NCBI GenBank assembly: GCA_007693505.1
Contig: REDL01000059.1
Span: 1 to 64,000 of the forward strand
DNA: 64,000 nt
From: Desulfovibrionales bacterium
Lineage (GTDB): Bacteria; Desulfobacterota; Desulfovibrionia; Desulfovibrionales; Desulfonatronaceae
Direction of reading: 5' to 3'
The translations under genes were made by a program, and so were the position numbers. The notes below the pieces were generated by a model. That model had not been told where the DNA came from, searched no databases, and saw only the letters and a list, made by a program, of their open reading frames with translations. How positions within the stretch are numbered: position 1 is the first letter of the stretch; each line of letters starts with the position of its first letter. Positions 53,291 to 63,139 of this stretch are shown here, piece by piece.

Positions 53291-54757
53291 CTATCCATCC
53301 TGGGTTATTCCGGCCATACAGACATATTTCAGTGTGGTGTAGTCGTCCAGGCCGTAGTGGGATCCTTCCCGGCCAAAGCCGCTTTCCTTGACCCCGCCAA
53401 AGGGCGCTTCGCAGGTGGACATCAAACTTTCGTTGACCCCCACGAGGCCGTATTCCAGGGCCTCGGAAACCCGCCAGGCCCGGCCCAGGTCGCGGGTGTA
53501 GACATAGCCCGCCAGGCCGAATTCCGTGGCATTGGCCAGGGCCACGGCCTCCTGCTCGGTCTGGAAGCGATACACCGGAGCCACGGGGCCAAAGGTCTCC
53601 TCCGTACTCACGATCATTCCGGGGAAGGCGTCGGCAATGACCGTGGGCTCAAAAAAGTTGCCCCCCAGGGCATGTCGCCGGCCGCCCAGGACAACGCGCC
53701 CGCCCTTGGACTGGGCGTCCGCGATCTGGGCTTCCATGTGCAGCACGGCCTTGTCGTCAATCAGCGGCCCCTGGTTCACGCCATCTTCCTGCCCGTCGCC
53801 GACCTTCAATTGGCTCACCGCGGCAACAAATTTCTCCAGAAAGGCATCGTAGATCCCATCCTGGACCAGAAACCGGTTGGTGCAGACGCAGGTCTGGCCC
53901 GTGTTGCGGTACTTGCTGCCCACGGCCCCGGCCACGGCCAGGTCCAGGTCCGCGTCATCGAAGACCAGAAACGGCGCATTGCCGCCCAGCTCCAAGGAAA
54001 CCTTCTTCACCGTGGCCGCGCACTGCCTGAGCAGCTCCTTGCCCACGCTGGTGGAGCCGGTAAAGCTCAGCTTGCGCACGACCGGGCTTGCGGTCAGCTC
54101 CGCCCCGATCACCCGCGACGAACCGGTCAGCACGTTGAACACACCCGCGGGAACCCCGGCCTGCACGGCCAACTCGGCCAGGGCCAGGGCCGAAAAAGGC
54201 GTCTGGCTGGCCGGCTTGATCACCACCGGGCAGCCCACGGCAAGGGCCGGCCCGGCCTTGCGGCAGATCATGGCCGTGGGAAAGTTCCAGGGAGTGATGA
54301 TCCCCACCACGCCCACGGGCTCGCGGGTGACCAGGATGCGCTTCCCCCGCCAGGGCGCGGGGATGATGCTGCCGTAGGCCCGCCGCCCTTCCTCGGCAAA
54401 CCAGCGCAGGAAGCTGGCCCCGAAACCGATCTCGGCCCGGGCCTCGGCCAGGGGCTTGCCCTGCTCCAGGGTCATCAGCCTCGCCAACTCCTCCCGCTCG
54501 GCCAGCATCAGATCGTGCAGGCGCAGGATGATCGCGCTGCGCTCCAGGGCAGTCATGGCCCGCCATGCCGGCCAGGCCTGGGCCGCGGCGTCAATGGCCC
54601 GGGCTGTCTCACCGCGCCCGCAGTTGGGTACAACGCCCAGCACTTCGGACGTGGCCGGATTGAGCACGTCCAGGGTCTTGCCGGAATCGGCGCTGATCCA
54701 TCGGCCACCCACCAGGCAGGCGGGGTCTCGGGACAATATTGTTTTCGCAAGGCTCAT
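53291..54757 (-). CDS. gabD: NAD(P)-dependent aldehyde dehydrogenase, succinate-semialdehyde type
   Basis: Full-length ALDH (488 aa). Motifs are TPWNFPTAMICRKAGPALAVG, the catalytic Glu in LELGGNAPFLVF, catalytic Cys in NTGQTCVCTNRFLVQ, and EETFGPVAPVYRF. The VGGRW / SADSGKTLDVLNPATSEV start and the sequence pattern fit GabD-like succinate- or glutarate-semialdehyde dehydrogenases; the exact substrate is not certain. It begins one base into the racemase stop (TGATG), so both are cotranscribed. Confidence 0.9.
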   Translation of the reverse strand: MSLAKTILSRDPACLVGGRWISADSGKTLDVLNPATSEVLGVVPNCGRGETARAIDAAAQAWPAWRAMTALERSAIILRLHDLMLAEREELARLMTLEQGKPLAEARAEIGFGASFLRWFAEEGRRAYGSIIPAPWRGKRILVTREPVGVVGIITPWNFPTAMICRKAGPALAVGCPVVIKPASQTPFSALALAELAVQAGVPAGVFNVLTGSSRVIGAELTASPVVRKLSFTGSTSVGKELLRQCAATVKKVSLELGGNAPFLVFDDADLDLAVAGAVGSKYRNTGQTCVCTNRFLVQDGIYDAFLEKFVAAVSQLKVGDGQEDGVNQGPLIDDKAVLHMEAQIADAQSKGGRVVLGGRRHALGGNFFEPTVIADAFPGMIVSTEETFGPVAPVYRFQTEQEAVALANATEFGLAGYVYTRDLGRAWRVSEALEYGLVGVNESLMSTCEAPFGGVKESGFGREGSHYGLDDYTTLKYVCMAGITQDG

Positions 54758-55494
54758 CAGGAATTCCTCTCATGGTTGGGGTGCGTAGCGCGGCCCTTGC
54801 ATGTAAAAATGATCTCCCGGGCCAGGATGTCCGCGGCATCGTGCAGGGGGAGCGGCGAGGCAACGGGGACAAGACCCAATTCCGTACACGCGACCACCAT
54901 GGCCTGGGCCCCCTCCGTTTGCAAGCTGGATACGGCCGCGTCCACGGCGGAGGCGGCCTGGTCCATGGCTCCCTTCTTGATGTCCTTGATGGCGGCCATG
55001 ACCCTGTCCTGGCAGACAGTCTCCGGATAGATCACGCTGACCCCGACAACCGCGAAAGCCCGGTGATACAGGCCGGTGAGCTGCATTGCCGTGGAGCCCA
55101 GGATGCCTACCGCCTTGATCCCGGGCTGCTCTTTCAGGACAGTCCGCACGGTGATCTGGATCAGGTTGAGCATCGGGATGGACACGGCGTCCTGGATGTC
55201 CCGGAAGTAGGCGTGGGCCGTATTGCAGGGCATGGCCAGAAAGTCCGCCCCCCAGGCTTCCAGACGCCTGGCCATGTCCCGCAATTCCGGCACCGGGCTG
55301 CCCCCCCCGCCTTCGATCAGGGCCTTGATCCGCGAGGGCACCTTGGGGTTGTTGTCCACGATGCACCGGATATGATCCGCGTCGTCCTGGGCCGGAGTCA
55401 GACGGATCAGCCGGGCCATCAGATCCACGGTAGCCTCAGGCCCCATGCCGCCGATGATGCCGACGATTTTTTCCTGTTGTAAGGGATGGTTCAT
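54757..55494 (-). CDS. Aspartate/glutamate racemase family protein
   Basis: The two catalytic Cys regions are intact: MPCNTAHAYF (about residue 83) and VACTELGLVP (about 197), each with a following Thr/Asn or Glu. GGMGPEATVDLMARLI starts the domain. It interconverts D- and L- forms of acidic amino acids, or of a related substrate such as cysteate, whose sulfonate resembles the carboxylate of aspartate. It overlaps the aldehyde dehydrogenase gene by one base. Confidence 0.9.
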   Translation of the reverse strand: MNHPLQQEKIVGIIGGMGPEATVDLMARLIRLTPAQDDADHIRCIVDNNPKVPSRIKALIEGGGGSPVPELRDMARRLEAWGADFLAMPCNTAHAYFRDIQDAVSIPMLNLIQITVRTVLKEQPGIKAVGILGSTAMQLTGLYHRAFAVVGVSVIYPETVCQDRVMAAIKDIKKGAMDQAASAVDAAVSSLQTEGAQAMVVACTELGLVPVASPLPLHDAADILAREIIFTCKGRATHPNHERNS

Positions 55495-55747: not shown

Positions 55748-56755
55748 TCAACCTTCCTTCTTGAAAGTCGACAAGTAGGCATACAGCGCGGGTGAGCCTC
55801 CGGTGTGCAGGAACAGGACGTTGCTGCCCTGGGGAAAATGGCCGGAGCGGACGAGATCCAGCAGGCCTGCGGCAGCTTTGCCGGAGTAGACCGGATCCAG
55901 GAGAATGGCCTCGTGCTTGGCGAACATTCGGACCGCCTCGACCATGGTTTCCGTGGGCAGGGAATAGCCGGGGCCGACGTACTGGTCGTAGCAGACCACC
56001 GCATCACTGGGGATGGGCACACTCATTTCCAACTTGACCGCCGTCTCCTCCGCCAGTTTGTGGACAATGCCTTCCTGGACGTCCTTGGGTCGGGACACAT
56101 TGACCCCGCTGACAGGGATATTGGCGTTGGTGCCGACCATGCCCACCACCATGCCGGCGTGGGTCCCGGCACTGCCCGAGGGCACGACGATGTGGTCGAT
56201 GTTCAGGTGTTCCGTATTCAGCTGGTTCATGATCTCTTCCGCACAGGCCACGTAACCCAAAGCGCCGATGGCGTTTGAAGCCCCTCCGGGAACAATATAC
56301 GGTTTTTTGCCCTGGGCTTTCAGTTCATCCGCCTTTTTGCGCATTTCCGCCATCATGTCCGATCCGCCCGGAGCCACGGCAATGCTCTTGACGTTCAACA
56401 GGTCGAACAAAAAGTTGTTCCCGCTGCCATCCGGCTTGTAGGAGCCCTTGACCCGTTCTTCCAACACCAGGTGACACTCCAGATTCTCCTTGCAGCACCA
56501 GGATGCGGTCAGGCGGCAGTGGTTGGACTGGACCGCGCCGCAGGTGATGATCGTGTCGGCCCCCTGCTCCAGACCGTCGGCCAGGCAGAATTCCAGCTTG
56601 CGGGTCTTGTTCCCCCCGCTGGCCCCTGGCAACAGGTCGTCGCGCTTGACGAACAGATTAACCCCTTTTCCCAAGGTTTTGCTCAGATTGTCCATGGGTT
56701 CGATGGGCGTGGCCCCTTGCAGGTAGGCACGACGGGGAAATTTTGTAAAATTCAT
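55748..56755 (-). CDS. dcyD: PLP enzyme of D-cysteine desulfhydrase / L-cysteate sulfo-lyase family
   Basis: Fold type II PLP enzyme of 335 residues. The PLP lysine is in [13 protein letters not shown] (about residue 52), the Ser/Asn/His pocket in [13 protein letters not shown], the phosphate loop in [11 protein letters not shown], and the C-terminal Ser in [11 protein letters not shown]. DcyD releases H2S and 2-aminoacrylate from D-cysteine; CuyA of the same family releases sulfite from L-cysteate. These cannot be told apart by eye. RidA is encoded next to it and would hydrolyse the enamine product, and a TRAP importer follows. GGAGAG precedes ATG 56755. Confidence 0.87.
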
Positions 56756-56933: not shown

Positions 56934-57314
56934 TCAACGCTCAAAAACAGCCTCAATCTCGATGTCCGCACCCAAAGGAAGGGCCGCCACCTGCAGGGCC
57001 GTCCGTGCGGGGTAGGGCTCCTTAAAAAACTGAGAATAGACCTGGTTCACGGCCTGAAAATCAGCCATGTTGGTCAGGAACACCGTGACCTTGATCGCCC
57101 GGTCCAGGCTTGTGCCCCCGGCCTCGGCAATGCTTTGCAAATTACGCAGGCACTGCTCGGCCCGGATTTGGATGTCTCCCTGGGGCATGGCACCGGTTTC
57201 CGGATCCAGAGGCAACTGGCCGGAGGTGAACAGCAACTGTCCTGAGGCTACTGCCTGGGAATACGGGCCAACTGCTTTCGGGGCCTTGTCGGTGTGAACA
57301 ACGGTTTTCGACAT
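56934..57314 (-). CDS. ridA: RidA family enamine/imine deaminase
   Basis: RidA/YjgF fold of 126 residues with VGPYSQAVASGQLLFTSGQLPLDP and the catalytic Arg in PYPARTALQVAALP. It hydrolyses 2-aminoacrylate to pyruvate and ammonia. 2-Aminoacrylate is exactly what the neighbouring PLP beta-lyase produces, so the pairing is functional, not accidental. GGAGC precedes ATG 57314. Confidence 0.93.
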   Translation of the reverse strand: MSKTVVHTDKAPKAVGPYSQAVASGQLLFTSGQLPLDPETGAMPQGDIQIRAEQCLRNLQSIAEAGGTSLDRAIKVTVFLTNMADFQAVNQVYSQFFKEPYPARTALQVAALPLGADIEIEAVFER

Positions 57315-57473
57315 GTGATGCTCCAATGAATATTTTGTAAAAATTAGATTAAAAGCAACAAGCACCTGGATGATAAGGCATTAGATGTAGCAAGTCTAAA
57401 CCATGAAAACTATTAAGATTCGGATCATCAATTTTCAAGTTCCAGGGGGTGGTCAAGAGAAAATAGCTTATGT

Positions 57474-58736
57474 TCAAGAAACTGAATGACTGCTTGCTTT
57501 AAGAGCTATTGATTCGATATCTTTAATTGTATCTTGGCTTACTGCCCTTTCTTTTAACAACTGACTAGCTTTGCCTAAATTTTCTTTTAAAATCTTGAAT
57601 GCCTCGAAAACAGTATCCGTGTACATTTTCAAATCATCTTGAGTTAGTGTTGGTATTATATATTCTTTAGCATATTCAGTACTCACAGCCATTGAAAGAA
57701 CAGCAGCTGTCCCTGGCAAAAGCCCTCCATTGTCAACAACATCGTTTACATCATCACTCATAAATAAAACACCAGAAACATCATATTTTATAATTTGAGC
57801 TAGTTCTGCAATAATTTTAATTTTAGTTCCTGCAGCTTTCGCTTTGTAAAGATCATTACCAAGATCAATAATTCTTTTTGATACGTTTTGGGTCGCCTTA
57901 CCTAGCGATCCAACAGCTCTTGGGTATGGGTTTTCTGGCTCAAAAACAGGATATCCGAGATTTTGAGCAGCCTTAACCAAGCAATTTCCGACGACAGAAT
58001 TATCGTGTAAGCTGTTTGCCCTGACAACAACAGTAGTATCATTTATGAATTTACTCCAAGAAGGTACGTAAGCTTTAGATTCAACTATTATAGTTGGCAA
58101 GTTAACCATGCCTAGCTGACGCATAAGTACACCCTTGTTTCCAATAGGAATATTGCCCTCCGTGTCTTCATTTGGACCGATTCCACCTGCAGATGAATTT
58201 ACCGTTAGAATCGTTGAAATACATAAACCATCTATTTGCAATACAGTCCCGAGATAGCAACCATCACTTCCCGGTGTATCTTCCAGAAAAAATAAAAAGT
58301 TTTCTGGATAGTTCTTCAAAAAAGTGTCGACGACAGATTTAGCAACAGCAGATATAAATGCTGATGGAACCTCCAGAACACCTTGGCCAACAATCCGCCC
58401 AAATATCTCGGTTGCCAGTGTTTGTGGACAAGAAGCATCTTTTCCAACAGCATTTTGCATAAGTGCTGATTCAGCTGGTGTTATTCCGCAACGCGCATAA
58501 CCTGAACCCTTACCGCCTCCACTTAATTCAACAGATATAATGTCACTATAATCAGTAACAGATACTTTAGATATTTTCAGATTCACAGGACCGGCTTCAC
58601 TAAGAATTTTCGTAACGACCGCAAACCCAGCTCCGTCTTCTTGAACAAATCCAGAGTGGCTAAAGACATGTCCCACGCCTATATGTCCAGCGAGGCCAGC
58701 AAATCCTTTTTGTTTTTTGCAAAAAGATATGCTCAT
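57474..58736 (-). CDS. Unrecognised 420-aa protein in a catabolic cluster
   Basis: GGGGAGAAC precedes ATG 58736 and the frame is intact. The protein is soluble, without signal or membrane segments. Notable stretches are GHIGVGHVFSHSGFVQEDGAG, CGITPAESALMQNAVG, LEDTPGSDGCYLGTVLQIDG and SSAGGIGPNEDTEGNIPIGNKG; the His- and Gly-rich patches suggest an enzyme with a metal or nucleophile site, possibly a hydrolase or racemase. I do not recognise its family. It ends the AT-rich block and is encoded between ridA and the TRAP transporter on the same strand. Confidence 0.7.
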   Translation of the reverse strand: MSISFCKKQKGFAGLAGHIGVGHVFSHSGFVQEDGAGFAVVTKILSEAGPVNLKISKVSVTDYSDIISVELSGGGKGSGYARCGITPAESALMQNAVGKDASCPQTLATEIFGRIVGQGVLEVPSAFISAVAKSVVDTFLKNYPENFLFFLEDTPGSDGCYLGTVLQIDGLCISTILTVNSSAGGIGPNEDTEGNIPIGNKGVLMRQLGMVNLPTIIVESKAYVPSWSKFINDTTVVVRANSLHDNSVVGNCLVKAAQNLGYPVFEPENPYPRAVGSLGKATQNVSKRIIDLGNDLYKAKAAGTKIKIIAELAQIIKYDVSGVLFMSDDVNDVVDNGGLLPGTAAVLSMAVSTEYAKEYIIPTLTQDDLKMYTDTVFEAFKILKENLGKASQLLKERAVSQDTIKDIESIALKASSHSVS

Positions 58737-58757
58737 ATGTTCTCCCCGTTTTCAGCT

Positions 58758-60029
58758 TTAAAGTAGCATAAGGCTAATTTGTGGGACATATGCCAAGACA
58801 AACACTGCAATTAACATGACAAATAAAAATGGAAGTACTGCATAACTTAAACGTTCAATACTAATTTTGCTGATACCGCAACCAACAAAAAGATTTACAC
58901 CTACAGGTGGAGTAAGAAATCCAAGAGAGACTGCAGCTATCATCACAATTCCAAAATGTGTCATGTCAATTCCAGCACCAGAAACTAGTGGGTGAAGAAG
59001 TGGAGTGAGAATCAAGATGTTTGCCAAAGCATCCATAAAGGTTCCAAGTATTAACAACATGATAATTATTACAAATAACAACAGCATTTTGTTGTCTGCA
59101 ATGCCAGAAAGAGCATCCACAATAAGATCAGGAACATTATATATTAATAAAATCTGTCCCAAAGCCGAAGCAGTTGCTACCACCAAAAAAATAGTAGCAT
59201 TCGTTAATGTCGCTGAACGCAAAATTTCCCAAACTTTTTTAAAATCCAGGCTCCTTAAAACTATTCCTTCTACGATGAAGGCATAAGTTACCGCAATAGC
59301 TCCAGCCTCTGTTGGTGTTGTAACCCCGCCATATATTCCGCCAAGAACTATAAATGGGACAACTATTGCGTATTTGGCTTCCCAAAATGCCTTCAATGTT
59401 TCCTTGTATGTTGCTTTTTTACTTTTTGTTTTAAAACCATAATACTTTGATAAAAAATAACATGTTGCCATTAAAATGATTCCGATGAACAATCCTGGGA
59501 CAATTCCTGCAATGAACAGGCTGCCAACAGATACACCGGCAGTTGTTCCATAAATAATTAACGGAACACTCGGAGGAATCATAACACCAAGACACCCGGC
59601 TGAAACATTTGTTGCAGTAGCAAAAGATTTTGAAAAACCTTCTTTTTCCATGGAAGGAATCATCGTACCACCAACTGCAGCCACGGTTGCTGGCGCTGAG
59701 CCGCTGAGGGCACCGTAGAACATGGAAGTCAAAACAGAAACATGAGCCAAACCACCAGTAATATGACCCACAAGACATCGTGAAAAATTAAGCAAAGATT
59801 GGGCCATGCTTCCTTTTTGCATGATCTCGCCTGCCATGATGAAAAAAGGAACTGCAAGCAAAGGAAATGTATCCAGTGAAAAAAACATCCTTTGCATCAA
59901 AAATTGAACAGGAATATCACCAATAATAATCGCAATTGCTACGCTCATCCCTATTGCAACACCGATCGGAACGCTTAAAATAAGAAGCAATGGCAAACAT
60001 ATAACAATTGCTAGAATTGGTGCATCCAT
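58758..60029 (-). CDS. dctM: TRAP transporter large permease DctM
   Basis: The 423-residue protein has about twelve membrane helices in the DctM pattern. Signature segments are FILMAGEIM-like VPFFIMAGEIMQKG, MFYGALSGSAPATVAAVGGTMIP, VSAGCLGVMIPPSVPLIIYG and SLGFLTPPVGVNLFVG. It carries the solute across the membrane using a sodium gradient. It is encoded with dctQ and dctP and is AT-rich like them. Confidence 0.95.
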   Translation of the reverse strand: MDAPILAIVICLPLLLILSVPIGVAIGMSVAIAIIIGDIPVQFLMQRMFFSLDTFPLLAVPFFIMAGEIMQKGSMAQSLLNFSRCLVGHITGGLAHVSVLTSMFYGALSGSAPATVAAVGGTMIPSMEKEGFSKSFATATNVSAGCLGVMIPPSVPLIIYGTTAGVSVGSLFIAGIVPGLFIGIILMATCYFLSKYYGFKTKSKKATYKETLKAFWEAKYAIVVPFIVLGGIYGGVTTPTEAGAIAVTYAFIVEGIVLRSLDFKKVWEILRSATLTNATIFLVVATASALGQILLIYNVPDLIVDALSGIADNKMLLLFVIIIMLLILGTFMDALANILILTPLLHPLVSGAGIDMTHFGIVMIAAVSLGFLTPPVGVNLFVGCGISKISIERLSYAVLPFLFVMLIAVFVLAYVPQISLMLL

Positions 60030-60106
60030 GATATTTATATCCTGTTCTTATTAAAAATAATATATTAACATTAAACTTAAAATAGATGGATTTTTTTCAT
60101 TGAAAT

Positions 60107-60583
60107 TTAATTATCTGGACGAATCAATTTCCATGTTACAAAAAGTGTTCGCAAGAACATGAGCACAAAACCTATAGGGATACACATAAATGGAATATAC
60201 ATGGGTATCTGAAGAGCAGGCGTTATTTGATTTGTCATGATAACAAAATTGACCATTTTAATTCCCCAAAACACCATCACGCAGCAAAAAACACTGGTGA
60301 TTGCATATGCTAGTATTGTAAAATATCTTCCTATTTTCTCATTAAAAACAGTACGGATAATTGTTACTTCTAAGTGACGACGACCAAGAGCAGCGTAACT
60401 CGATCCTATATAAACAGAATAAATGAAAAGATATCTTGCTAATTCCTCTGGCCAGGCAAGAGAGTGCTGGACAACATAACGCATGAATACCTGTACAATA
60501 ATAATTGAGGCCATAAATAAAAGAGCCACGGAAGCTGTAATTTCTTCAAATCGATTGATCCATTGAAGAGCGGCATTCATCAT
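60107..60583 (-). CDS. dctQ: TRAP transporter small permease DctQ
   Basis: About 158 residues with four membrane helices, and the family segment YVVQHSLAWPEELARYLFIYSVYIGSSYAALGRRHLEVTII. The ATG at 60583 has GAGG six bases upstream; TTG 60595 and ATG 60589 are alternatives. A strong hairpin separates it from dctP. Confidence 0.93.
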   Translation of the reverse strand: MMNAALQWINRFEEITASVALLFMASIIIVQVFMRYVVQHSLAWPEELARYLFIYSVYIGSSYAALGRRHLEVTIIRTVFNEKIGRYFTILAYAITSVFCCVMVFWGIKMVNFVIMTNQITPALQIPMYIPFMCIPIGFVLMFLRTLFVTWKLIRPDN

Positions 60584-60598
60584 CGTCATCCTCAAAAT

Positions 60599-60628
60599 GG
60601 CGGCAGGCAGAAAATTCTACCTGCCGCC
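60599..60628 (-). promoter_or_regulatory. Hairpin between dctP and dctQ
   Basis: GGCGGCAGG and CCTGCCGCC pair fully, with a further AGAA/TTCT stem inside, leaving a two-base loop. It follows the dctP stop by six bases and precedes dctQ by 15. Such hairpins usually stabilise or partly terminate transcripts so that the binding protein is made in excess of the membrane parts. Confidence 0.65.
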
Positions 60629-60634
60629 TGATGT

Positions 60635-61654
60635 TTAATTGTTCAAACCGGCCTCTATGGTTTCCTTCATTTCATCAATCAACTCTGGTGGAACATCTTT
60701 TGCAAACCTAGCGGCGACACCGGAAGTCGCGTCTATCCAGCGTTGACGTTCTTCAGTCGAAAGTTCAATGATCTCGCCACCACCTTCCTTAATTTTTTCA
60801 AGAATCATTGCTTCGTTGCTACGAATTGTTTCACGCTGAAATTGCTGCATTACCTCAAAAGATTCCCTGATCCAATTCTGCTGTTCCGGGGTAAGTCTCT
60901 CAAAAAACACCTTTGAGACCATAACCAGATGTGGACTATAGAAACTGCGTGTGAGGGTTACATACTTCGTAATCTCAGGAAAGTTGTTGAACCAAGCCAA
61001 ATTTAGATCAATATCGATCGCATCAACAGTACCCTGTTGCAAAGCCGTGTAGACCTCACCCCAAGCCACAGGGGTAGGATTCATCCCTAGCGACCTAAGT
61101 ATATCTATATGTGCCCTGGAATGGGTTGCACGAATTCTTAATCCCCTAGCGTCTTCAAGAGTTCGGATCGGTCGGCTTGAAAAAATCTGCCTGAAACCAA
61201 TTTCAATATAACCCAAACCTATTATACCGTTTCTTTCCAATGATTCCGCAAGCCTCTGTCCTATCGGACCATCTGTAATAAGATCTGAAGCCTCGTAACT
61301 TGGGACAATAAATGGCATATCGAGAAACATCAGCTGAGGATTAAATACTGATAAATTGTTTGTTGCGTCTGAACCCATCTGCAGTGTTCCCATCTGGATA
61401 CCTTGTACAACAGCATCAAAGTTTCCATATTTCGAGCTATCATATATAGTTACACGAAATACACCTCCAGATCTTTCTTCAAGATCAGCCTTGAAAAGTT
61501 CATAACCTTGTCCCATAGGGTGCTGTGGAACATTTGGGTGAGCAACTCTAATGACAATTTGGTTGCTTGCACTGACTTGGGTAATAAAAAATATACCAAC
61601 AAACATAACAACTGCAACAATAACGATAGAAAATTTTTTGATACTCTTCATCAT
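60635..61654 (-). CDS. dctP: TRAP transporter solute-binding protein DctP
   Basis: Exported binding protein (339 aa). The signal peptide is IKKFSIVIVAVVMFVGIFFITQVSAS. The mature part has the DctP pattern ELFKADLEERSGGVFRVTIYDSS, RGLRIRATHSRAHIDILRSLGMNPTPVAWGEVYTALQQGTVDAID with the Arg (in LRIRAT) that binds the substrate carboxylate. Substrate class is therefore an organic acid; a sulfonate such as cysteate would also fit. AGGAGG lies before ATG 61651/61654. AT-rich. Confidence 0.94.
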   Translation of the reverse strand: MMKSIKKFSIVIVAVVMFVGIFFITQVSASNQIVIRVAHPNVPQHPMGQGYELFKADLEERSGGVFRVTIYDSSKYGNFDAVVQGIQMGTLQMGSDATNNLSVFNPQLMFLDMPFIVPSYEASDLITDGPIGQRLAESLERNGIIGLGYIEIGFRQIFSSRPIRTLEDARGLRIRATHSRAHIDILRSLGMNPTPVAWGEVYTALQQGTVDAIDIDLNLAWFNNFPEITKYVTLTRSFYSPHLVMVSKVFFERLTPEQQNWIRESFEVMQQFQRETIRSNEAMILEKIKEGGGEIIELSTEERQRWIDATSGVAARFAKDVPPELIDEMKETIEAGLNN

Positions 61655-61704
61655 GACCTCCTGTCTAGTTTAGGTTGGATTAGCTATATTTAATTAATTA
61701 TACT

Positions 61705-61816
61705 TCGAACGATTCAATTTTTAATTTTGAATCACATACAAAATCCCATGCGAGCAAATCGCTCATGGCTATCTATGGAATTTATCCATTCAAAATATCA
61801 AAACACAATCGTTCGA
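61705..61816. promoter_or_regulatory. Paired 10-bp inverted sites upstream of dctP
   Basis: TCGAACGATT (61705-61714) recurs inverted as AATCGTTCGA (61807-61816), 92 bases apart, 50 to 160 bases upstream of the dctP start. Two identical inverted sites this far apart suit looping by a dimeric regulator such as the divergent GntR protein. Confidence 0.45.
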
Positions 61817-61827
61817 TGCATAAGAAC

Positions 61828-61842
61828 ATCTAGAGTCTAGAT
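61828..61842. promoter_or_regulatory. Palindrome ATCTAGA-G-TCTAGAT
   Basis: A perfect 7-1-7 palindrome in the dctP upstream region, about 175 bases from the dctP start. Size and symmetry fit a GntR/FCD operator. Confidence 0.45.
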
Positions 61843-62064
61843 ACTATCAAAACATATCATTATTCTGACTTAACTAAAATAAAATTCTTCTTCAGTCATG
61901 TACTTGTTAGGCACCGTGTATTGTTATGGCAAAAATTTTGTCCACCCTGTGGTGTTCCGAATCAGGGGATAGTTAATCCTGCTTTTGCCTTTCTGGTGGT
62001 CACTGCAAAAAGTCCCTTTTCCCGCGAAAACGTGTGATGTGATTTTGCTCAAACCCTGGAAAGA

Positions 62065-62094
62065 CTGGATTCCGACTTTCGCCGGAATGACGAA
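62065..62094. repeat. REP-like short palindrome (VIPAKAG type)
   Basis: CTGGATTCCGACTTTCGCCGG followed by AATGACGAA is the common dispersed palindrome whose reverse frame encodes FVIPAKVGIQS. The stem is ATTCCG/CGGAAT. A variant is at 16521-16548. Confidence 0.7.
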
Positions 62095-62482
62095 TTTCAG
62101 GGTTTTGGGATTTTCTACAGTAACATCTTTCCGGATTCTGATGCCGAACCCTCCTGCTTCACCAAGCTTAGCGCTACCGCAAAGGACGACTCTTTTTGAG
62201 ACCTGAATTACGTCCAGAAAAAAAACAATCCTCAAATCAACGTTCTAATTCTTTTTAAAAAAACTAGCGAAATCCAACAAAGCTGTCAATATTTTATAAA
62301 ATTTTTTTTAAATTTTTTTAATGTTTATTTTCTATAAAATTTTTCTTAACTTCGCCCTGTTTCTGGTGTACTGACGGAGTTTCCAAGAACAGGGTAGCCC
62401 CGGTTCGACATGACCTTTGGTGTTCATATTGCGCCTGAGAGTGCGATTGGATACTCAGGATTGATGACAAGTGGAGAAGTAA

Positions 62483-63139
62483 ATGGCTGAAAAGAATTGC
62501 GAAATGAAATCCCTGGCCGCGTATCAGCGGATCAGGGACATGATCATCACCAGGGAGAAACTCCCTGGAACGCGGCTTGTGATCTCGGAGTTGGAGGAAG
62601 AACTGGGCATCGGCAAGGGGCCGCTCCGGGAAGCGCTGATGCGCCTGGACCGGTCCGGCCTGGTGCGCAATATTCCCTACAAGGGTGCGCTGGTGGCCGA
62701 GGCTCCGCGGATGCGCGAGATTGAGATCATTTATGAAATGCGGGTCAAGCTGGAGACGACCCTGGCCCTGGAGGCCATGGCCAATATGGACGAGCCGGGC
62801 ATTGCCAAACTGGAATCCATGCTGACGGAAATGCAGCCAGGCCTGGACCTTCAGACCCTATACCATCTGGACCGCCAGTTTCATGCCCTGATTTACGAAT
62901 ACTCACGGCTGACCCACCTTTGCCTGGTGGTGGACAAGCTGATGGAGTCCGTGGACATCTTCCTGGTCAATCGTCCCCGGGACGACAACGATCTGGCGCG
63001 GATGTACGAGCAGCACGTCCAGATTCTGGAAGCCTTCAAAAAGAAAGACGAGGCCATGCTCAAGGATATTTTCAAGCAGAATATCAAGAACGGGCTGCGG
63101 TTGATTAAGAAAGTCTATAGCCGATTCATGTTTCACTAG
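62483..63139 (+). CDS. GntR-family regulator, FCD (FadR) subgroup
   Basis: N-terminal winged helix with LVISELEEELGIGKGPLREALMRLDRSGLVRNIPYKGALV, where the second helix is the recognition helix. C-terminal FCD ligand domain (about 75-215) with metal-binding positions in YHLDRQFHALIYEYS and YEQHVQILEAFKK. Regulators of this group often respond to organic acids. GGAGAAG precedes ATG 62483. It diverges from the TRAP and amino-acid genes and probably represses them until the substrate arrives. Confidence 0.92.
   Translation: MAEKNCEMKSLAAYQRIRDMIITREKLPGTRLVISELEEELGIGKGPLREALMRLDRSGLVRNIPYKGALVAEAPRMREIEIIYEMRVKLETTLALEAMANMDEPGIAKLESMLTEMQPGLDLQTLYHLDRQFHALIYEYSRLTHLCLVVDKLMESVDIFLVNRPRDDNDLARMYEQHVQILEAFKKKDEAMLKDIFKQNIKNGLRLIKKVYSRFMFH

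Follow-up and report, generated by a model that had tools for sequence, protein, structure and literature searches.

Which protein is encoded between ridA and dctM in this genome, and what does it do? The sequence-only reading of the window (the whole stretch of 64,000 nucleotides of Desulfovibrionales DNA that was analysed) had placed a 420-residue protein there and had judged it unassignable to any family by sight, and its size, its location and its lack of assignment were all borne out. The reading frame is intact on the minus strand, from an ATG at 58736 to a TGA at 57474 (Table 1), with stops abundant on the plus strand of the same interval, leaving the opposite strand closed. The probability of 420 stop-free codons by chance at the local composition is ~4e-13, and the ribosome-binding site GGGGAGA, a good match, precedes the ATG ~20 bases past the dctM stop. 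Comparison of the protein with Pfam, NCBIfam and PDB sequences gave nothing above noise, and no description of the family was found in the literature searched. Weak matches to the PRD1 spike protein, NifH and DapF were rejected as noise because they were far under the cut-offs and confined to single members each.

The gene and its operon

On the same strand, dctP, dctQ and dctM lie upstream of the focal gene, and ridA, cuyA, cuyB and an aldehyde dehydrogenase gene downstream. CuyA scores over its equivalog cut-off with the uptake system DctPQM adjacent and, since both CuyA and CuyB exceed the NCBIfam equivalog cut-offs, the cluster (TRAP DctPQM, the focal gene, RidA, CuyA and CuyB) serves cysteate and is a cysteate-use operon. 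The host genome also contains dsrA, so respiration of the released sulfite would be possible. The operon is of the same kind as the CuyA/TRAP cysteate-use operons known from sulfonate-degrading bacteria (PMC11382572 and PMC10507020 for the pathway), relative to which the focal gene is an extra component. The cuyAB operon is terminated by the succinate-semialdehyde-type dehydrogenase gene.

Base composition divides the cluster in two. GC3 is 0.25-0.36 in the focal gene and dctMQP against 0.64-0.84 in ridA, cuyA, cuyB, the dehydrogenase gene and the GntR gene, and positions 57400-62400 of the window form a low-GC island (~38% vs ~60%) flanked by ridA and the GntR gene. In addition, the focal gene was found in none of seven genomes of the same genus. 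From the GC3 contrast and this absence, transporter and focal gene seem to have arrived together as one module beside a cuyAB operon of usual genome composition, and this joint low-GC module is independent evidence that the two function together.

Table 1 Features of the focal gene and its surroundings in the window
Feature	Position	Strand	Description
Succinate-semialdehyde-dehydrogenase-type aldehyde dehydrogenase	53291..54757	-	TIGR01780, 674 bits (cut-off 646); operon end
CuyB, cysteate racemase	54757..55494	-	NF052483, 275 bits (cut-off 190)
CuyA, D-cysteate sulfo-lyase	55748..56755	-	NF052482, 519 bits (cut-off 450)
RidA, enamine/imine deaminase	56934..57365	-	TIGR00004, 166.8 bits (cut-off 106)
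Focal gene	57474..58736	-	420 aa; unnamed family; predicted NP-I-like core with inserted enolase-N-like domain
Low-GC module (focal gene and dctMQP)	57474..61654	-	GC3 0.25-0.36
Motif GGIGPNEDTEGN, residues 184-195	58152..58187	-	E190 and E193 invariant
Inserted cap domain, residues ~51-150	58288..58586	-	Enolase-superfamily N-terminal-domain-like (predicted fold)
Motif GHxGxGHxxSxxxxxQxD, residues 17-34	58635..58688	-	After strand 1; H18, H23, Q32 and D34 invariant
DctM, TRAP transporter large permease	58758..60029	-	PF06808, E 3.4e-107; TIGR00786; directly upstream of focal gene
DctQ, TRAP small permease	60107..60595	-	PF04290
DctP, TRAP solute-binding protein	60635..61654	-	PF03480
GntR/FCD regulator	62483..63139	+	PF00392, PF07729; divergent from dctP

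Family, conserved residues and predicted fold

Some 80 homologues were found, in sulfonate-respiring deltaproteobacteria, Bacillota, Fusobacteriota, Synergistota, Sutterellaceae and Thermoproteota. The species-level genome collection yielded 70 loci with a three-sequence alignment as query; the focal protein used singly gave no match in its contigs. Among 395 genomes of the host phylum one relative was found (43% identity), another lies on a Fusobacteria plasmid, and relatives occur in four genomes of the order of the first relative and in 12 of the 368 genomes searched from the phylum to which a Clostridia-type member belongs; the viral contigs searched held none. A few homologues look broken (L067:9299-10512, L148 and L161:6173-6964), with a two-frame split, an inner stop or the N-terminal motif missing. 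The family occurs twice in a single Desulfoluna MAG (L010 and L043), one copy lying behind an SDF symporter and the other behind RidA-CuyA.

We aligned the focal protein with 58 relatives (alignment A2, 59 rows), none of which matches Pfam, NCBIfam or PDB sequences above noise. The family is real, conserved and unnamed. Twenty-two columns are invariant (G17, H18, G20, H23, Q32, D34, G37, E89, G113, G119, G185, G187, P188, E190, E193, G194, K201, E219, R239, D245, M326 and G338), and the focal protein retains all of these residues. The motif-like stretches previously picked out in this protein hold up for His and Gly (GHxGxGH, GGxG and GGIGPxEDxEGN are conserved) but not for Cys, which appears in none of the invariant or nearly invariant columns. 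The motif at residues 17-34 is a putative catalytic or metal loop.

With alignment A2, AlphaFold gave a model of the focal protein with pLDDT 95.5 and pTM 0.94, in which residues ~1-50 and ~146-400 form a core like that of the nucleoside phosphorylase-I (NP-I) enzymes. Foldseek found one significant PDB match for the whole model, uridine phosphorylase 3qpb (E 2.8e-5), and NP-I enzymes also led a second structural comparison, with MTA/AdoHcy nucleosidase 1jys at Z 12.6 (rmsd 3.6, 174 residues). Residues 51-161 resembled the N-terminal domain of the mandelate racemase/muconate lactonizing enzyme 3s5s (Z 11.5, rmsd 2.5, 86 residues, 23% identity). Folded alone (pLDDT 90.9), the inserted domain had only enolase-superfamily proteins among its 50 listed matches (Z 9.4-10.9, the best over 103 of 116 residues) and no match among PDB sequences. 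The BFVD folds gave no match. Profile-profile tests were carried out with hhalign, using 11 unrelated families as controls. The core was negative against 30 PNP_UDP_1 proteins (P 0.13, off register), and the cap against MR_MLE_N gave P 0.0076, in register at T-x-x-G-x-x-G, the best of 13 families and weakly above background.

In its predicted fold the core resembles the NP-I superfamily (1jys, 3qpb; PF01048), from which the protein differs in its ~10% identity, its lack of a profile-profile signal, its large inserted domain and its amino-acid, not nucleoside, contexts; in Pfam none of the 59 members matched PF01048. The inserted domain likewise resembles, in predicted fold, the N-terminal capping domain of the enolase superfamily (MR_MLE_N/Enolase_N), but it has no Pfam hit and sits in a different core: the catalytic TIM barrel with its metal ligands and Lys/His catalysts is absent, the remaining chain being modelled as the NP-I-type alpha/beta core. 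An NP-I-like core with an enolase-type cap would be an unusual combination, found in no solved structure among the matches listed, where no single PDB chain spans both parts. Judged by the order of structural elements, the invariant residues appear to cluster in the loops that follow the core strands on their C-terminal side, where active sites of NP-I enzymes are found.

Gene neighbourhoods across the family

In every locus the genes were predicted, grouped by clustering and given profile-based labels, with NCBIfam and Pfam supplying the identity of the profile representatives. A transporter gene stands directly upstream of the family gene in 54 of 73 loci and belongs to one of four unrelated families (on the same strand, DctM in 24, a sodium:dicarboxylate/glutamate-type symporter or SDF in 20, a CitT-like permease in 6 and TauE in 4), the gaps being mostly <60 bases. 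The enzymes linked in these 73 loci are CuyA (22), type I or type II asparaginase (20) and the amidohydrolase PF07969 (6), with RidA present at many of the CuyA-linked loci. Transporter and family gene stand alone in 8 TRAP-only and 8 SDF-only loci, some of them cut by contig ends. Further Bacillota loci again show SDF or CitT, family gene and asparaginase, one of them with an aspartase/fumarase-type lyase and one with DcuA/B. On the tree, the CuyA label takes five changes and the asparaginase label eleven; both linkages thus recur in separate branches, which for CuyA are the clade of the window, the main clade of Desulfobacterota, Fusobacteriota and one Sporomusaceae. In the phylum sample of 395 genomes only two have the family gene, and both belong to the 15 whose CuyA exceeds the cut-off (Fisher p 0.0013).

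The sequence-only reading had named two findings that would speak against it, a strong match to a characterised family and a lack of conserved linkage. Neither appeared, the searches of Pfam, NCBIfam and PDB sequences having returned no such match and the transporter and CuyA/RidA linkage being strongly conserved, and overall the reading is supported. Its suggestion that the protein acts on the imported compound early, at step one or two, agrees with the location behind the transporter gene. The TRAP/RidA cluster that it described is a conserved linkage, but the family is broader, with many members beside asparaginase and acidic-amino-acid symporters.

Several loci show other neighbours. On the Fusobacteria plasmid (L003, CP102408.1, 4883-13188) the homologue's neighbours are a divergently encoded glycyl-radical enzyme with its activase, an iron alcohol dehydrogenase and a TauE exporter, a neighbourhood like an organosulfonate-lyase cluster. 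In Desulfogranum mediterraneum (L004:2579-5587) a symporter that by sight looks like GltS adjoins an amidohydrolase-type gene ~4 kb from the family copy, and this amidohydrolase type is also family-linked in Tissierellia. The gene immediately upstream of the family gene in L058:5070-6488 and L042:3-509 encodes a 472-aa protein for which Pfam gave nothing significant; it is adjoined by an AbgT-type transporter in L058 and is possibly another unnamed family or a transporter. In Desulfoluna-type loci (L018, L019, L014 and L040) the unit of TRAP and family gene lies opposite a hybrid sensor kinase and response regulator, which suggests substrate-induced control.

Proposed function and its alternatives

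Cysteate is the sulfonate analogue of aspartate. Adjacency to importers and breakdown enzymes of aspartate, asparagine and cysteate points to a probably undescribed enzyme using these compounds, and since members stand beside asparaginase and acidic-amino-acid symporters, amino acids of the aspartate type are likely to be the substrates. We infer that cysteate, aspartate and asparagine have this type in common, a substrate class well supported by context. Given these neighbouring enzymes, the location behind the transporter gene and the invariant His, Asp, Glu, Lys and Arg residues, the family is probably a cytosolic first-step enzyme on imported aspartate-type amino acids. The neighbouring transporter would import the amino acid and the family enzyme, which we place in the cytosol, would take the first step there, on cysteate in the window genome and other sulfite/sulfate reducers and on asparagine or aspartate in Bacillota and Sutterellaceae. 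It would stand for a step so far unannotated in organosulfonate respiration, from which H2S arises in guts and sediments, and for another in the way that gut bacteria such as Parasutterella and Phascolarctobacterium use asparagine or aspartate. The active site may lie where the strands of the core sheet end on their C-terminal side (H18/H23/D34, E190/E193, E219 and R239/D245), probably with a bound metal to judge from conservation, and would be closed by the enolase-like cap (E89, R114, Q118 and E122).

For the reaction itself racemisation is our first choice, ahead of hydrolysis as its main rival, and still a doubtful one. The family enzyme would turn L-cysteate into D-cysteate, from which CuyA would form pyruvate, ammonia and sulfite, the sulfite being reduced through Dsr; in other hosts D- and L-Asp or Asn would be interconverted ahead of asparaginase and aspartase. 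Against a racemase, the family lacks the Cys pair that known cofactor-free amino-acid racemases carry, and a DapF-like racemase was rejected because of this. The full explanation, a first-step enzyme family with metal site, cap and racemisation, is offered tentatively, as something short of an even chance. More tentative still is the reading as a new superfamily whose enzymes would depend on a metal, not on PLP, and would act on aspartate-type amino acids in free form, as racemases or otherwise. Built from an enolase-type cap inserted in a nucleoside-phosphorylase-type core, they would replace CuyB in sulfonate respiration and serve asparagine/aspartate use in gut anaerobes and archaea.

Under hydrolysis, an N-substituted form of aspartate, asparagine or cysteate would be imported, and a metal-dependent enzyme (deacylase- or peptidase-like, with a phosphorylase/hydrolase fold) would release the amino acid from it. 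Two His and several Asp/Glu of the invariant set do resemble a two-metal hydrolase site, amidohydrolases (PF07969) stand beside some members and an AbgT-type transporter, of a family known for N-acyl-glutamate uptake, beside one; yet we hold this to be unlikely, as the commonest linked transporters (SDF and CitT-like) move free small acids and the nearest core folds are nucleoside phosphorylases, with no Zn-exopeptidase among the fold matches listed. Another kind of enzyme, be it a lyase, a mutase or a decarboxylase, might carry out the first step on free aspartate or cysteate and be sufficient alone where only a transporter is linked, as in the several TRAP-only and SDF-only loci, and the cap echoes the enolase superfamily, home of methylaspartate ammonia-lyase. 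In the commonest contexts, however, lyase and hydrolase steps are already covered by CuyA, asparaginase and aspartase, which makes such an enzyme more unlikely again.

It is improbable that the protein is no enzyme at all and acts as a transporter partner or sensor, for example a ligand-binding regulator of uptake. The adjacency to four unrelated transporter families and the apparent acquisition of family gene and TRAP genes as one low-GC module would agree with such a role, but the 22 invariant residues, many of catalytic type, are placed by the model in strand-end loops of an enzyme-like core, and the partner transporters share no common fold that one protein could plausibly bind. Very improbable, finally, is an N-riboside or N-glycoside phosphorylase or hydrolase: MTA/AdoHcy nucleosidase and uridine phosphorylase are the top core matches, but there is no profile link to PNP_UDP_1 and the surveyed neighbourhoods show no recurring genes for nucleosides or sugars, a gene context on which nucleosidase function was rejected.

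Racemisation as the preferred reaction bears on CuyB. CuyA prefers D-cysteate, which CuyB supplies (PMC11382572). The role proposed for the family enzyme is alike, but its sequence is unrelated to CuyB (NF052483, Asp/Glu racemase family), with no match to NF052483 or PF01177 found in the family by Pfam and NCBIfam. A racemase would explain L-cysteate use in CuyA genomes without recognisable CuyB, and ~15 of the 23 genomes with CuyA near the family gene have no CuyB above the cut-off. With truncated contigs and non-independent rows, CuyA-linked CuyB was found in at most 3 of 22 loci with the family gene against 7 of 13 without it (p 0.02), and the genome-wide comparison, subject to the same limits, was not significant (8 of 23 vs 7 of 13, p 0.31). 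Family gene and CuyB are both present in the window and likewise in several relatives, and a CuyB/Asp-racemase homologue adjoins the family gene in three loci (L035, L039 and L055).
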